Below are positions 26,122 to 34,616 of a stretch of DNA of 64,000 bases, in pieces; positions within the stretch are counted from its first letter, which is position 1, and every line of letters starts with the position of its first letter. Under the pieces are notes generated by a model. That model worked only from the letters and a program-made list of their open reading frames with translations. It made no database searches and was not told the origin of the DNA. The stretch is taken from the NCBI GenBank assembly GCA_019638775.1, contig JAHBTD010000002.1, forward strand, positions 682,001-746,000, in the 5' to 3' direction. The stretch is from Fimbriimonadaceae bacterium. Its GTDB lineage: Bacteria; Armatimonadota; Fimbriimonadia; Fimbriimonadales; Fimbriimonadaceae. The position numbers and the translations under genes are program-made.

Positions 26122-26245
26122 GCCCGCATTGTTACCCGATAATCCTACTGGGTTGACACAATTCAACCCGCCAGCGCCGTTAAGGACGACGGCTCGGGAC
26201 ACCCGATGATTACATCTCCGTGTTTCGCGGTGCAAGGAAGTGAAA

Positions 26246-26866
26246 ATGAAACAGAAACTGAGAATTCTTGGTGCGGGCATTGGCCTGCTTGTCTTTGGTG
26301 CAAATACCGAGGCTGCGTGGTACACAAACGAAGCCGATTTCCTTTCCGCTATCCACGGATCGTACTACCTGGAAGATTTCGCCGGCTGGGATTTCTCTGC
26401 ACCACTCGATGGTTCAGAAACAGAATGGTCAGCTCCTGGCTCGAACGGATATAGATGGAATGGGTTTGCGGCCGATGGATTGTTCTCTATTCCGGGTGCG
26501 CTTTCAACTAACTTCGCGAACGACACTTTAACGCTATCTTTTACGGGAGCGCCAGTAAGGGCGTTTGGACTGAACATCGCCAATTCCGACTTTGAAGCGA
26601 ACTATATCGCCGGCGATGCAACCGTTACACTGAGCAACGGAGCCGTGAAAACACTGAGCTTGGCTGGCAATCAGGGATTTCTCGGTTGGGCGGGCAATGA
26701 AACCCTCACATTCGCAGCCCTGAGCACAACAAATTCCAATGTGGATGATAATTGGGTATCCGCCGATCACATCTACACTGGAACATCCGCGCCTGTTCCG
26801 GAACCTGCATCGATTGCCATCCTCGGGTTGGCAGTGCTCTCCTTGCTTCGGCGACGAAGAAGCTAA
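26246..26866 (+). CDS. PEP-CTERM exported protein, paralogue 1 of 3
   Basis: 206 residues. AAGGAAG a few bases upstream supports ATG 26246. Signal peptide MKQKLRILGAGIGLLVFGAN, then the mature start AWYTNEADFLSAI. The body shares with the two following genes the blocks YLEDFAGW, GANGY-like SNGYRW, FTGAPVRAFGLNI, AGDATVTLSNG and GFLGWAGNE. The end is the PEP-CTERM signal VPEPASIAILGLAVLSLLRR, an exosortase substrate tag made of a PEP motif, a hydrophobic helix and arginines. Function of the beta-rich domain unknown. Confidence 0.92.
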   Translation: MKQKLRILGAGIGLLVFGANTEAAWYTNEADFLSAIHGSYYLEDFAGWDFSAPLDGSETEWSAPGSNGYRWNGFAADGLFSIPGALSTNFANDTLTLSFTGAPVRAFGLNIANSDFEANYIAGDATVTLSNGAVKTLSLAGNQGFLGWAGNETLTFAALSTTNSNVDDNWVSADHIYTGTSAPVPEPASIAILGLAVLSLLRRRRS

Positions 26867-26889
26867 AGCCTGCAAGCACACGGCTTTTC

Positions 26890-26929
26890 AAGAACCCCTC
26901 TACTTAATCGTTGGGGGGTTCTTGTTTTA
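26890..26929 (+). terminator. Rho-independent terminator after PEP-CTERM 1
   Basis: Arms AAGAACCCC (26890-26898) and GGGGTTCTT (26915-26923) are perfectly complementary and followed by GTTTTA. Confidence 0.8.
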
Positions 26930-27096
26930 TGTCAAGACCATTCAGAGCGCTCTCTGCAGAAATCTTGAATAACTTGTACATATCGGATTTGTTTTGTAGA
27001 TTCTCCCCGGTAAAATCACCAATTATTGCCACTTCTCGATTGACTCAGGGTGAGGTTGGCACGATTTGCAGTATATTAAATTCTCTACAGAAAGTT

Positions 27097-27115
27097 TGTC
27101 CATGGTTATTGGACA
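27097..27115 (+). promoter_or_regulatory. Leader hairpin/operator candidate before PEP-CTERM 2
   Basis: TGTCCA and TGGACA form 6-base inverted arms around a 7-base loop, ending 17 bases before the start codon. A comparable GTCC...GGAC element precedes PEP-CTERM 3. Confidence 0.4.
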
Positions 27116-27132
27116 GGTGGGTGGAACACGTT

Positions 27133-27753
27133 ATGAACAAGAAAATGAGATTTTTAGCGGCTGGCGCCGTTTTGATGGTTGCAAGCGCCAGTGCACATGC
27201 AACTTGGTACACGAACGAAGCGAACTTCCTCGCAGCAATTGATCCGAACTTCTACCTTGAAGATTTCAATACGTTCACCTCGTTCGGTACGCCGCTCGAC
27301 GGAACGACGAGCACTTGGTCGGCTCCAGGCGCAAACGGTTACGGCTGGGATGCTTTCGCAGCAGGTAACCTTTGGTCGAACGTTGGCGCACTGTCAACGA
27401 ACCTCGCCGAAGATCCGATCGTGATCACGTTCACGGGCGCCCCCGTTACAGCATTCGGTCTTAAGATCGGCAACACCGATATCACCGGTGCTTTCATCGC
27501 TGGCGATTCGACCGTTACGCTCAGCAATGCTGCAACCAACACGCTCACACAGGGCGCAACCGAAGGATTCCTCGGCTGGGTTGGCAACGACGTTCTGACA
27601 TCAGCAACACTCACAACCGTCAGCCCGGCTAACGACTGGGTCCAAGCTGACCACGTTTACACGGGCGCAGCCGCTGTTCCCGAGCCCGCAACCATGGCAG
27701 TCCTCGGAGTTGGCGCACTCGCACTTCTTCGCCGACGAAACAAGAAGGCGTAA
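27133..27753 (+). CDS. PEP-CTERM exported protein, paralogue 2 of 3
   Basis: 206 residues from ATG 27133 (MNKKMRFLAAGAVLMVA); the frame is open upstream to 26911 but crosses the terminator of the previous gene. Signal peptide ends near AHA, mature start TWYTNEANFLAAI. It repeats the blocks YLEDFNTF, GANGYGWDAFA, FTGAPVTAFGLKI, AGDSTVTLSNA, GFLGWVGND and QADHVYTG, and ends VPEPATMAVLGVGALALLRR. Of the three copies it has the most Asn/Thr-rich body. The expected export is Sec followed by exosortase processing; no exosortase is in the window. Confidence 0.92.
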   Translation: MNKKMRFLAAGAVLMVASASAHATWYTNEANFLAAIDPNFYLEDFNTFTSFGTPLDGTTSTWSAPGANGYGWDAFAAGNLWSNVGALSTNLAEDPIVITFTGAPVTAFGLKIGNTDITGAFIAGDSTVTLSNAATNTLTQGATEGFLGWVGNDVLTSATLTTVSPANDWVQADHVYTGAAAVPEPATMAVLGVGALALLRRRNKKA

Positions 27754-27776
27754 AGACCTTCATCCGACACTAACGG

Positions 27777-27811
27777 AAAGCGAGTTCACCTTAAGGTGAA
27801 CTCGCTTTTTT
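27777..27811 (+). terminator. Strong Rho-independent terminator after PEP-CTERM 2
   Basis: A perfect 16-base inverted repeat (AAAGCGAGTTCACCTT and its complement, effective TTAA loop) runs directly into six Ts. Confidence 0.92.
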
Positions 27812-27868
27812 GTGCCTCTCCCTCCCTGCCCGCAAAAACACCAGTTCAGACCAACTTTTCCTGAAGCC

Positions 27869-27897
27869 TTGACTAACTACAGCTGTAATGATACATA
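27869..27897 (+). promoter_or_regulatory. Sigma-70-type promoter of PEP-CTERM 3
   Basis: TTGACT (27869-27874), a 17-base spacer and TACATA (27892-27897). A perfect palindrome TACAGCTGTA (27878-27887) lies in the spacer and could be a regulator site. Confidence 0.55.
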
Positions 27898-27910
27898 CTC
27901 ACTACTATTG

Positions 27911-27932
27911 TAGTCCGCGTGATGTCGGACTA
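27911..27932 (+). promoter_or_regulatory. Leader hairpin/operator candidate before PEP-CTERM 3
   Basis: TAGTCCG and CGGACTA form perfect 7-base arms around an 8-base loop, just upstream of the AAAGGTGAG ribosome site. Position and core (GTCC...GGAC) match the element before PEP-CTERM 2. Confidence 0.45.
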
Positions 27933-27943
27933 AAGGTGAGTAG

Positions 27944-28543
27944 ATGCTGAAACGAATGAGATTTACAATAGCTTGCAGCGGGCTCCTTGCGCTGTCTATG
28001 AGCGCACACGCAACTTGGTACACCAACGAGGCTGACTTCCTTGCCGCTGTCGGGCCAAATCTCTATCTGGAGGACTTTAATGGCTGGACCAACGCTTCTC
28101 CCTTGAATGGCGCTCCATCCTGGGCATCGCCTGGTGCAAACGGATTCGGTTGGACGGCATCTGCTGATCAAGGACTGTACTCTCTGCCTGGTGCAATATC
28201 GACGAGCTCTCCGTTCAAAATCATCAATTTCAACTTCACTGGCTTGCCAGTCACCGCTTTTGGGTTGGTTCTCGGAAACAGTGATCAAAACGGAAACGAT
28301 TTCGCGGGAGACTCAACGTTGCGTCTGAGCAATGGCGAGTCGAAGGCCCTAACGCAGGGCGCGACGCGATCGTTCGTAGGCTGGGTCGGGGCAAGTTCCT
28401 TTGCGAGCGCTGAGATCTTCTCAAGCCATTGGGTTGTCGGCGATCACATCTATACTTCTGGGCCCGTACCTGAGCCTGCGACATTGGCCGTTCTGACGAT
28501 CGGCGCAATCGCGCTGCGCCGTCGCAATACGAAGAAAGCTTAA
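27944..28543 (+). CDS. PEP-CTERM exported protein, paralogue 3 of 3
   Basis: 199 residues. AAAGGTGAG upstream supports ATG 27944. Signal peptide ends at SAHA, mature start TWYTNEADFLAAV. Shared blocks: YLEDFNGW, GANGFGW, FTGLPVTAFGLVLGNS, AGDSTLRLSNG, SFVGWVGA, GDHIYTSG. The end VPEPATLAVLTIGAIALRRR is the PEP-CTERM signal. It is the most divergent of the three in the middle. Each copy has its own upstream region and terminator, so they seem to be separate transcripts rather than an operon. Confidence 0.92.
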   Translation: MLKRMRFTIACSGLLALSMSAHATWYTNEADFLAAVGPNLYLEDFNGWTNASPLNGAPSWASPGANGFGWTASADQGLYSLPGAISTSSPFKIINFNFTGLPVTAFGLVLGNSDQNGNDFAGDSTLRLSNGESKALTQGATRSFVGWVGASSFASAEIFSSHWVVGDHIYTSGPVPEPATLAVLTIGAIALRRRNTKKA

Positions 28544-29600: not shown

Positions 29601-29661
29601 ATGCAACTATATGGTTGCATTATTCTTCGGCAATTGCTATAATGCAACTCGGAGGTTGCAT
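29601..29661 (+). promoter_or_regulatory. Promoter with twin operator palindromes (probable ArsR autoregulation)
   Basis: Two copies of ATGCAAC-N6-GTTGCAT lie at 29601-29620 and 29642-29661. TTGCAT (29615-29620), 17 bases and TATAAT (29638-29643) form a near-ideal sigma-70 promoter. The first palindrome covers the -35 box; the second begins in the -10 box, includes the GGAGG ribosome site and ends at the start codon. Centres are 41 bases apart, close to four helical turns, so bound dimers would sit on the same face. Confidence 0.85.
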
Positions 29662-30120
29662 ATGAACAACACTTTGCAGGATACGATTGAACGAGAGATG
29701 ATTTTGAACGCGCCGATTGGCCGGGTCTATCACGCACTTGCCGACGCCAAAGGCATTTGCTCTTGGTTTATGACAGCAATTGAAGGAAAGTACGAAGCTG
29801 GGGAGGACGTCGTCTTCATGTTCCAAGGCTCAACGGCAGTGTTTCGCGTTTCGGCTCACATAGTGGCAATGGACCCACAGCATTACTGCGCCTATCGTTG
29901 GGTGCCGGGGTCGGACACTATAGAAGGAGACCTTTCCAAAGTTGCAACGACGCTGGTTGAGTTCTTCTTGACAGAGACAGAAGGTGGAACGAAGCTCCGA
30001 ATGGTAGAGAGCGGATTTACCTCTCTATCTCCAGATTACTATGAGCAGGCATTCAAGGATAACAACGGCGGCTGGGACGAGGAGCTTCCGAAGCTCAAAG
30101 CCTTCGTCGAGCAGGCGTAA
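29662..30120 (+). CDS. SRPBCC/AHSA1-family protein
   Basis: 152 residues from ATG 29662, preceded by GGAGG. AHSA1/START-like fold: EREMILNAPIGRVYHALAD at the start, then SWFMTAIEGKYEAGEDV, TTLVEFFLTETEGGTKLRMVESGF and a C-terminal helix ending GGWDEELPKLKAFV. Members bind hydrophobic ligands; the role of this subgroup is unknown, but they are very often paired with ArsR regulators. The stop codon shares one base with the ArsR start (TAATG), so the two are translated together. Confidence 0.9.
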   Translation: MNNTLQDTIEREMILNAPIGRVYHALADAKGICSWFMTAIEGKYEAGEDVVFMFQGSTAVFRVSAHIVAMDPQHYCAYRWVPGSDTIEGDLSKVATTLVEFFLTETEGGTKLRMVESGFTSLSPDYYEQAFKDNNGGWDEELPKLKAFVEQA

Positions 30121-30431
30121 TGGCCGTTGCCGAAGTCTTTCGGGCTTTGGGCGATCCTGTGCGGTTAGAGATTGTAAGACGGCTATCGCAAGACACGCCG
30201 TATACAATCTCTAATCTCACGGAGGACCTTGGAGTGACCCGTCAAGGGGCGCGCAAGCATCTGCAGGTCTTGGAGAACTCGAGGCTGATTATTCTGCGTC
30301 CGGAGGGACGGCAAGTGCGCGTCTCGCTTGATGCAGAGACTCTGAAGAAAGCGAAGTCTTTCATTGCCGAGCTTGAAGCAAAATGGGATGCGCGGCTGGA
30401 AGCGCTACGACAATTTGTCGAAGAGGATTAG
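30120..30431 (+). CDS. ArsR-family HTH transcriptional regulator
   Basis: 103 residues. Winged helix with FRALGDPVRLEIVRRLS, the recognition region ISNLTEDLGVTRQGARKHLQVLENSRLI and the wing LRPEGRQVRVSL. No CxC metal site of the ArsR/SmtB type, so the signal is probably not a simple metal. It is coupled to the AHSA1 gene by TAATG. The twin palindromes upstream of the operon are the likely binding sites, giving autorepression; this is inference from site placement. Confidence 0.92.
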   Translation: MAVAEVFRALGDPVRLEIVRRLSQDTPYTISNLTEDLGVTRQGARKHLQVLENSRLIILRPEGRQVRVSLDAETLKKAKSFIAELEAKWDARLEALRQFVEED

Positions 30432-33270: not shown

Positions 33271-33312
33271 ACCCCTCCCTTGTTAACGGCGAAGCCTTAA
33301 TGAGGGAGGGGT
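33271..33312. repeat. Palindromic element after groEL, possible terminator
   Basis: Perfect 10-base arms ACCCCTCCCT (33271-33280) and AGGGAGGGGT (33303-33312) with a 22-base loop; a G-rich half-copy follows (TAGGGGAGGGAG). There is no T run, so it is a REP-like element more than a classical terminator. The ATG used for the next gene lies inside it. Confidence 0.65.
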
Positions 33313-34616
33313 TAGGGGAGGGAGATATATCGCAAAAAACCCTAACCGAACAGGCAATTCAACTCGCATCACAGACAAGTCTTAGCCTCTTGTCCAGCAA
33401 GAGTCGAGAATTCCAGTTGCATGTCAGCAATACACTCGGGCGTTTAGTAACACAAGGCTACTCAATGTCACGAGACACTGTGACGTCTCAGCGTCTATAT
33501 TCAGCCATCTATTCTTGGATCAGCGAATTCGCCGAAAAGGCTTGGCAAATGTATGTAAGTCGGATTGAGCAGGCTGGGCTGAACCATGACACGACGTCCG
33601 TTGAAGTAGCCTATCAGCATTTTAAGGCGCAACAATCAACCTGGACACCAATCTTAGTCGCTTCTTGTGCGGAGGCCATAAAGATCGACTCCAGCACCGC
33701 AGAGGAAACAGCACGAAACTTTGTAAGCAGAGCCCTTGGCGACAGTGTTTCGGCGCAACATCAGAGTTATCTTAATCTGAGAGACAACGCAATTCTCGCA
33801 ACCGAAAGAGCAAGATCGGACCAGCCAAGACTTAACAAGAACAACTTAGCTCTTATTTTCGGACGTGACGATGTAGCTACCAACTGTATACGTCGGGTTG
33901 TAAAGTCACTTAGCGTTAACCTTATCGACTTTCAATTCGCTAAAATAAAAGGAGAAAGCGCTGATGATTTCAATCATGAAATCATCGACCGCCTTTTTGA
34001 GAGTTGTGATGGCGCGATTGTAATCCTGAGCCCGGATGAAAGAGCTATCCTCCGCCCACAACTACACCGACACGCAAGCGACGCTAAGGAGAAATATCAG
34101 GCCAGACCAAACGTCATTTTTGAACATGGAATAGCACTGGGTAAATTTGGAAGGCGTGTAATTGTGGTCCAATTTGGGGATGTAGAGTTACACTCTGATG
34201 TTGCTGGGCTGCACCCATTTCGGTGGAGCGATGCTAAGTCAATGAGGAATCAACTGTCTGATCGTTTATCTGCAATGGGCTATTCTGTTAAGGCAACTGG
34301 ACGGTGTCCAAGAATAAAATATGTTCCCATTGGTGACCGTAAGGGATATAAGGATGATCCTAATAGCGTTGATTATGACAATTTAGATTGGTTTCAAATG
34401 TCTAGCGATGCGTTGAATGGAAATCCTCAAATTCAAGGATTTATGAAGGAAGGATGGCGGATTACGTCATGTAGACCAAGCGACCTCACAAAAGTAGAGC
34501 TTGAAGGATTCAGACCCGTTGTAATACGTCGTCCTAACGGGACACTGGTCAAGCTACACGCAGGCAATCGAGAAGATGACAAGGGAAGCATCTGGATAAT
34601 GAGAAGAGAGGCATAA
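33300..34616 (+). CDS. TIR-like (PF10137-type) nucleotide-binding protein, possible defence effector
   Basis: 438 residues if started at ATG 33300; the first nine residues come from the palindrome, so the true start may be further in (next ATG at 33465). Residues about 15-175 are helical and unrecognised. About 183-325 matches the TIR-like domain of Pycsar/CBASS-type effectors: ALIFGRDD, IIDRLFESCDGAIVILSPDE, RPNVIFEHGIALGKFGRR and SDVAGLHPFRW. These proteins are thought to cleave NAD+. Residues 330-438 form another unrecognised region. The gene is AT-richer than groEL and its codons differ, suggesting acquisition. No cyclase is adjacent. Confidence 0.75.
   Translation: MREGLGEGDISQKTLTEQAIQLASQTSLSLLSSKSREFQLHVSNTLGRLVTQGYSMSRDTVTSQRLYSAIYSWISEFAEKAWQMYVSRIEQAGLNHDTTSVEVAYQHFKAQQSTWTPILVASCAEAIKIDSSTAEETARNFVSRALGDSVSAQHQSYLNLRDNAILATERARSDQPRLNKNNLALIFGRDDVATNCIRRVVKSLSVNLIDFQFAKIKGESADDFNHEIIDRLFESCDGAIVILSPDERAILRPQLHRHASDAKEKYQARPNVIFEHGIALGKFGRRVIVVQFGDVELHSDVAGLHPFRWSDAKSMRNQLSDRLSAMGYSVKATGRCPRIKYVPIGDRKGYKDDPNSVDYDNLDWFQMSSDALNGNPQIQGFMKEGWRITSCRPSDLTKVELEGFRPVVIRRPNGTLVKLHAGNREDDKGSIWIMRREA

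Follow-up and report, generated by a model that had tools for sequence, protein, structure and literature searches.

Genes and promoter layout

The 64,000-nucleotide stretch of Fimbriimonadaceae DNA analysed here, referred to as the window, contains two adjacent forward-strand genes encoding an AHSA1-type SRPBCC protein of 152 aa (29662..30120; PF08327, 47.2 bits against a cut-off of 22.1) and an ArsR-family repressor of 103 aa (30120..30431). The ArsR gene is the second of the two and overlaps the AHSA1 stop codon by one base (TAATG), a coupling that had already been proposed in the original prediction. An RluA-type synthase gene upstream and an acetyltransferase gene downstream were each found on the opposite strand, and since these flanking genes point away or converge, the operon comprises AHSA1 and ArsR, two genes. 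Other features of the window included three consecutive related PEP-CTERM protein genes of 199-280 aa (26240-28543, forward strand), a local tandem expansion. Directly after groES-groEL was a gene for a 438-aa protein (33300-34616, forward strand) with a CAP12/Pycsar-type TIR domain (PF10137, 59.9 bits), possibly an anti-phage effector beside the chaperonin operon.

The ArsR protein scored over the curated cut-offs of HTH_20 (41.4 bits, cut-off 27), HTH_5 (30.6 bits, cut-off 22) and NF033788 (61.8 bits, cut-off 55), while it was under the cut-off of 100 for the SdpR autorepressor family NF033789 (32.1 bits) and far under cut-off with the CmtR and BigR models. Its predicted structure (pLDDT 93.5) had the winged-helix order of elements with the recognition helix at residues 41-53, and the best structural matches were 3F6O (Z 14.2) and 2OQG (Z 13.8). 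The codons of recognition-helix residues 40-47 (TRQGARKH) are at 30237..30260 on the forward strand, and three of these residues (41, 42 and 46) vary together with bases 3, 4 and 7 of the operator, as described below. The Cys/His ligands or redox cysteines of metal- and thiol-sensing regulators of the CmtR, SmtB and BigR type were not found in the window ArsR, which has no cysteine and one histidine. Metal sensing was rejected for this protein as it has neither a cysteine nor a metal-site signature, and cysteine was likewise absent from 70 of its 116 relatives with an RQ helix. ArsR genes beside SRPBCC genes carry the NCBI-style annotation 'metalloregulator ArsR/SmtB' at other loci (for example L384 and L385), a label that is probably misleading for this whole ArsR subclass.

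Upstream of the operon are two perfect ATGCAAC-N6-GTTGCAT palindromes of 20 bases each, with no strand assigned, a distal copy (ATGCAACTATATGGTTGCAT, 29601..29620) that is conserved in relatives and a proximal copy (ATGCAACTCGGAGGTTGCAT, 29642..29661) that abuts the start codon. They are 41 bp apart from centre to centre. The right arm of the distal copy, GTTGCAT, provides a -35 hexamer TTGCAT (29615..29620, forward strand), and 17 bp past it is a perfect TATAAT (29638-29643) that is preceded by TG to give an ideal extended -10 (TGC-TATAAT, 29635..29643, forward strand) and overlaps the start of the proximal operator by its last two bases. Within the proximal copy fall the tail of the -10, the position at which transcription is expected to start and a Shine-Dalgarno GGAGG (29651..29655, forward strand).

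An exact check of the sequence placed the palindromes, promoter hexamers and Shine-Dalgarno where they had been predicted, with small adjustments. The proximal palindrome had been said to reach over the -10 box, ribosome site and start codon, and the start codon is in fact uncovered as the palindrome ends at 29661 and the ATG begins at 29662. The embedded TTGCAT-N17-TATAAT promoter is correctly positioned, but its -35 matches TTGACA at only three of six bases and the promoter was absent from the list of a standard promoter scan of the window, an omission due to this weak hexamer. Promoter strength would therefore rest on the extended -10.

Occurrence of the site in the genome and in relatives

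The two copies were the only mismatch-free sites in the window, where the other two matches had three mismatches, a looseness at which shuffled sequences yielded about three matches. A genome-wide search, as the original prediction had suggested, gave both near-perfect sites at the AHSA1-ArsR promoter: in the 4.3-Mb genome no other site had 0 or 1 mismatch, six more had 2 mismatches and a backward control pattern had no matches in the same search. A genome-wide regulon of ATGCAAC-N6-GTTGCAT was rejected since there was no further site with 0 or 1 mismatch.

Conservation was assessed in a sample of 150 relatives and the genome itself, 42 of which had an ArsR homologue at E < 1e-12. In all 29 relatives fetched with the ArsR protein as the sole criterion, AHSA1 preceded ArsR and the operon had an upstream site scoring 11/14 or better. 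Absence of the palindromes from orthologous operons had been named as the outcome that would overturn the prediction, and this outcome did not occur. With the window included, 28 of the 30 reached at least 12/14, and 41 bp was the most frequent distance to a second site. In eight of these 28 no second site could be recognised at up to 60 bp, which makes twin sites a frequent but not an essential arrangement. Two tandem AHSA1 genes were found ahead of ArsR in L014, L023, L029, L035 and L039, and in these the operators lie upstream of the first AHSA1.

ArsR proteins from other phyla, collected by profile, were sorted into classes by their gene order and the type of recognition helix. The R-Q helix [TS]RQ[AG]xxKH was present in 115 of 115 AHSA1-first operons, a set that includes loci selected for twin sites and was sampled with a profile built from R-Q proteins, which favours that class. 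Ninety-two of the 115, twin-selected loci included, had a site of at least 12/14 compared with none for the backward control pattern. Other helices were found in 74 of 79 ArsR-first operons, and only five of these 74 reached 12/14; ArsR paralogues with such helices often had palindromes of equal geometry and different letters. After removal of the twin-selected loci, AHSA1-first R-Q operons with a site of at least 12/14 numbered 28/30 in Armatimonadota, 13/16 in Acidobacteriota, 13/22 in Actinomycetota, 2/4 in Pseudomonadota and 1/1 in Bacteroidota, which leaves about 40% of the protein-selected actinobacterial members with weaker sites only.

A blind DNA scan for two sites 3-33 bp apart was run on both strands of one genome per species (85,000 species, 257 Gb) and found 51 stretches, compared with about 0.004 expected from 26 fixed bases and 31 spacings under an assumed uniform composition. 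These belonged to at least nine phyla: Armatimonadota, Acidobacteriota, Pseudomonadota, Actinomycetota, Bacteroidota, Planctomycetota, Gemmatimonadota, Chloroflexota and Fibrobacterota. By tblastn with the window proteins as the only queries, 36 of the 51 places were flanked by AHSA1 and ArsR and six more by one of the two, and further SRPBCC genes were recognised at scan loci by their reading frames. Counting the protein-selected loci as well, the site recurs at the equivalent position in Acidobacteriota, Actinomycetota, Pseudomonadota, Bacteroidota, Planctomycetota, Gemmatimonadota and Chloroflexota. Some loci were set aside as not clearly AHSA1-ArsR systems. At L042 and L068, two loci of one genome, the twin sites are located within a short tandem repeat. 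The only gene adjoining L091 is of HTH type, the twin sites of L057 lie ahead of an SDR gene, and at L074 ArsR comes first, the other gene is glyoxalase-like and the sites are 26 bp apart. At L079 (Myceligenerans) an MFS transporter gene lies between the twin sites and AHSA1-ArsR, a placement that hints at ligand export.

Spacing and anatomy of the operator pairs

The 6-bp spacer between the arms was conserved in 67 non-redundant pairs, and the distance between sites varied. Spacing was 41 bp in 22 pairs, 40-42 bp in 35 and 45-48 bp in 16, and seven pairs at 33-34 bp were all actinobacterial save possibly one. A spacing of 26 bp was found in ArsR-first operons of Bacteroidota, and the overall range in relatives was 26-51 bp. 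In 35 of the 67 pairs an ATG came within four bases after the proximal copy. An ArsR-first R-Q subclass from Bacteroidota and Acidobacteriota (L160, L164-L168, L174, L259 and others) carries a distinct SRPBCC gene after ArsR, and its two TGCAAC-type sites are spaced at about 26 bp; among its members, replacement of K46 by L or Q accompanies a change of AAC to AAG, and replacement of A43 by T accompanies GCAG.

Among the 40-42 bp pairs, the distal right arm was TTGCAT in 26 of 35, and the five bases ahead of the proximal site included TA in 29 of 35, compared with 12 of 35 for the distal site. The operator pair thus contains the promoter, whose geometry accounts for the spacing at least as well as helical phase does. 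The operators of the window had been described as in phase, and their 41 bp, or 3.9 helical turns, is close to phase and not exactly in it; phase is no requirement given the range in relatives, and it was rejected as an essential feature because the spacings are too varied. An alternative in which ArsR acts as an activator, or in which a DNA loop or helical-phase cooperativity between dimers is essential, would draw on the 40-42 bp peak (35/67) and on some phase preference (Rayleigh R 0.36, p ~1e-4, with kinship ignored). We regard it as unlikely, as the 45-48 bp and 26 bp spacings are out of phase and a spacing of 41 bp also has the effect of leaving 17 bp between TTGCAT and a -10 whose AT belongs to the proximal site as well. 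The overlap of both sites with the promoter core likewise fits repression.

The position of the ribosome site allows another explanation, in which the proximal palindrome forms an RNA hairpin that controls translation as a thermometer or riboswitch and the distal copy is a terminator. The proximal copy could form a 7-bp stem with GGAGG in the loop and the distal copy was terminator-like in a mechanical scan; on the other hand, transcription is expected from about 29650 given the -10 at 29638-29643, so the proximal left arm should stay untranscribed, and the hairpin was rejected on this ground. Further, AGGAG or GGAGG was contained in the proximal copies of 18 of the 67 pairs and in none of the distal copies, which have the same letters; the proximal copy is away from the Shine-Dalgarno in many relatives; and the arm letters co-vary with protein residues. 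Control by RNA structure is thus given only the slightest chance.

Recognition helix and operator sequence

The window genome encodes at least six candidate ArsR paralogues. Other ArsR proteins of this genome, several of them beside AHSA1 genes, differed in helix and in palindrome while keeping to the 20-bp geometry: TRFAIMKH was paired with ATGTGACCATATGGTCACAT, DRCTVMKH with ATGTTGCTATTTAGTAACAT and SMPAVVKH with ACTGAACCAAATGGTTAAGT. For each ArsR, the operator was taken as the best 20-bp palindrome near the promoter with palindromicity as the sole criterion. Residue 41 was associated with base 3 (R-G in 116/138, L-T in 40/42, Q-A in 15/17), residue 42 with base 4 (Q-C in 99/110, P-T in 40/52, T-G in 16/18) and residue 46 with base 7 (K-C in 145/162, Q-G in 9/13). 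Arginine-guanine and glutamine-adenine are standard contacts.

In a mutual-information scan of all alignment columns against eight bases, using 101 representatives with less than 60% identity (column index + 3 corresponds to window numbering), the pairs 41-base 3 and 42-base 4 ranked first and second, and 46-base 7 and 46-base 8 were in the first six. When proteins differed at residue 41 alone, base 3 changed in 68% of pairs compared with a background of 16%; the corresponding values were 89% and 12% for residue 42 and base 4, and 78% and 38% for residue 46 and base 8. Independent paths on a tree built without the helix gave 67, 70 and 72% for residues 41, 42 and 46 over backgrounds of 15, 19 and 27%, with such paths on a best tree counting for less than a resolved tree would. 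Proteins of 100 residues give poorly resolved trees, and for this reason starred-branch tests on the tree of ArsR proteins yielded only two to five independent pairs with support for each trait.

A compact and largely modular code, shared by ArsR repressors of AHSA1/SRPBCC genes on one common type of 20-bp palindrome, is the likely explanation of these patterns, in which residue 41 goes with base 3 (R-G, L-T, Q-A), residue 42 with base 4 (Q-C, P-T, T-G, A/N-C) and residue 46 with bases 7-8 (K-CC, R-CA, Q-GT). Several insulated ArsR-AHSA1 switches could then be present in one genome, each with an operator readable from few residues. Residue 43 possibly goes with base 6 (A/G-A, T-G), in few cases. 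The window helix TRQGARKH (R41, Q42, K46) and half-site ATGCAAC (G3, C4, C7) agree with the code, and the specific, readable operator of the original prediction was borne out beyond what had been claimed, as the site letters are predictable from the recognition helix.

The rule was fixed in writing before 98 test loci (L285-L382) were fetched. It named the correct base in 35 of 44 cases for residue 41, 34 of 45 for residue 42 and 32 of 40 for residue 46, compared with shuffled means of 15.8, 16.3 and 27.2, and all three bases were correct in 24 of 40 loci and in 13 of 16 among perfect palindromes. Residue 46 taken alone was not significant in the perfect-palindrome subset (13/16 compared with 12.2 after shuffling) because K46 dominates. 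An annotated plasmid operon of SRPBCC followed by ArsR, with the helix TRQGVTKH, had the sites TGGCAACC and AAGCAACC 45 bp apart. A search of a mycobacterial family with the published operator of Rv2034 gave one genome with an adjacent ArsR-first AHSA1 operon (L383), whose helix SRPAVSQH is the kind that the rule requires for this operator. The TRAAVKKH class (L225, L385) was a counter-example that reads GATACC or similar, and several AT-rich Bacteroidota promoters gave chance palindromes during palindrome picking.

These patterns also bear on whether another regulator, of the Zur/Fur or PadR type, binds the palindromes while ArsR acts elsewhere. The half-site has been reported for Zur of Desulfovibrio, where the spacer is 3 bp, and for AphA, also at a shorter spacing, whereas here the 6-bp spacer was kept throughout the 67 non-redundant pairs, the sites adjoin the AHSA1-ArsR pair and little else, and the letters of the site differ according to which recognition helix the adjoining ArsR has. 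A foreign regulator is therefore considered very improbable.

Proposed mechanism and significance

We put at roughly 0.9 the probability that the palindromes are dimer operators of the operon's own ArsR, which would block the promoter in a negative feedback that is relieved by a ligand. Binding and autorepression by ArsR at the twin sites, as deduced from sequence comparison, are the best explanation of the presence and rarity of the palindromes, their conservation across phyla, their genetic setting and their co-variation with the helix, and the autorepression reading of the original prediction is supported, with the tight switch that it names as a putative feature. A dimer on the distal site would cover the -35 region and one on the proximal site the -10 end, the transcription start and the Shine-Dalgarno, so that RNA polymerase is proposed to be excluded. 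As ArsR is second and overlaps AHSA1, the repressor would be made with its partner and would shut off both genes. A ligand may free the repressor and raise AHSA1; it would probably be a small hydrophobic compound and not a metal. The N-terminal turns of the recognition helix would set the operator letters, with R41-G3, Q42-C4 and K46-C7 as the candidate contacts.

ArsR-SRPBCC pairs are common in bacteria and are mostly annotated, in a way that probably misleads, as 'metalloregulators' for which neither operator nor ligand is known. With a conserved operator that is linked to residues of the helix, a DNA target can be proposed and tested for each of these genes, and since reporters can be designed from sequence, the question of what ArsR-AHSA1 pairs sense becomes approachable. 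The family also represents a natural set of small orthogonal repressors, and the helix-operator code is the part that would be of interest to specialists.

Comparison with known systems

The half-site ATGCAA(C) is common to the window site and to those of two regulators that differ from it in spacing, protein family and genes. Desulfovibrio Zur has been predicted at ATGCAAC-N3-GTTGCAT (PMC545781) and AphA of V. cholerae, a PadR-family protein, binds ATGCAA-N4-TTGCAT (PMC6855506), so the half-site is not unique to ArsR-AHSA1 operons. A search of the open-licence literature turned up no account of ATGCAAC-N6-GTTGCAT as an operator class of ArsR-AHSA1 operons, and none of a code linking helix and operator in the ArsR family; an earlier description is possible.

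Autorepression in ArsR-SRPBCC operons is already known. Rv2034, an ArsR protein of Mycobacterium tuberculosis, represses itself at a footprinted 20-bp palindrome, CCGTAAGT-N4-ACTTACGG, in the operon Rv2034-Rv2035-Rv2036, where Rv2035 is an SRPBCC/polyketide_cyc2 protein and zinc and other tested metals gave no release (PMC3338718). The window operon is alike in that an ArsR repressor shares an operon with an SRPBCC gene and a 20-bp palindrome is at the promoter, a setting also found in its relatives, with binding to the window operator being predicted. It differs from Rv2034 in that the latter has the ArsR gene first, a single footprinted palindrome with other letters and another helix (SRPAVSQH in the related L383).

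NolR of Sinorhizobium (PDB 4omy, 4omz, 4on0) has the same ArsR-family fold, and its base contacts are mostly from helix 4. Base-specific contacts have been attributed to Gln56, at the start of this recognition helix (PMC8960804). A structural alignment of residues 1-87 of the window model with residues 17-102 of the NolR chain (Z 10.0) put residue 41 at or next to Gln56. NolR differs in its targets, which are nodulation genes, in its motif (A/T)TTAG-N9-A(T/A) and in having about 20% identity to the window ArsR.

The closest solved structures by sequence were 2OQG, 3F6O (Rhodococcus RHA1) and 7R22, for which no described operator or function was found. 2OQG has the same RQ helix as the window protein (VSRQAIAKHL). 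The code predicts targets for these unexplained structures, namely xxGCAACC for 2OQG, xxTTAACC for 3F6O and xxACAACC for 7R22.
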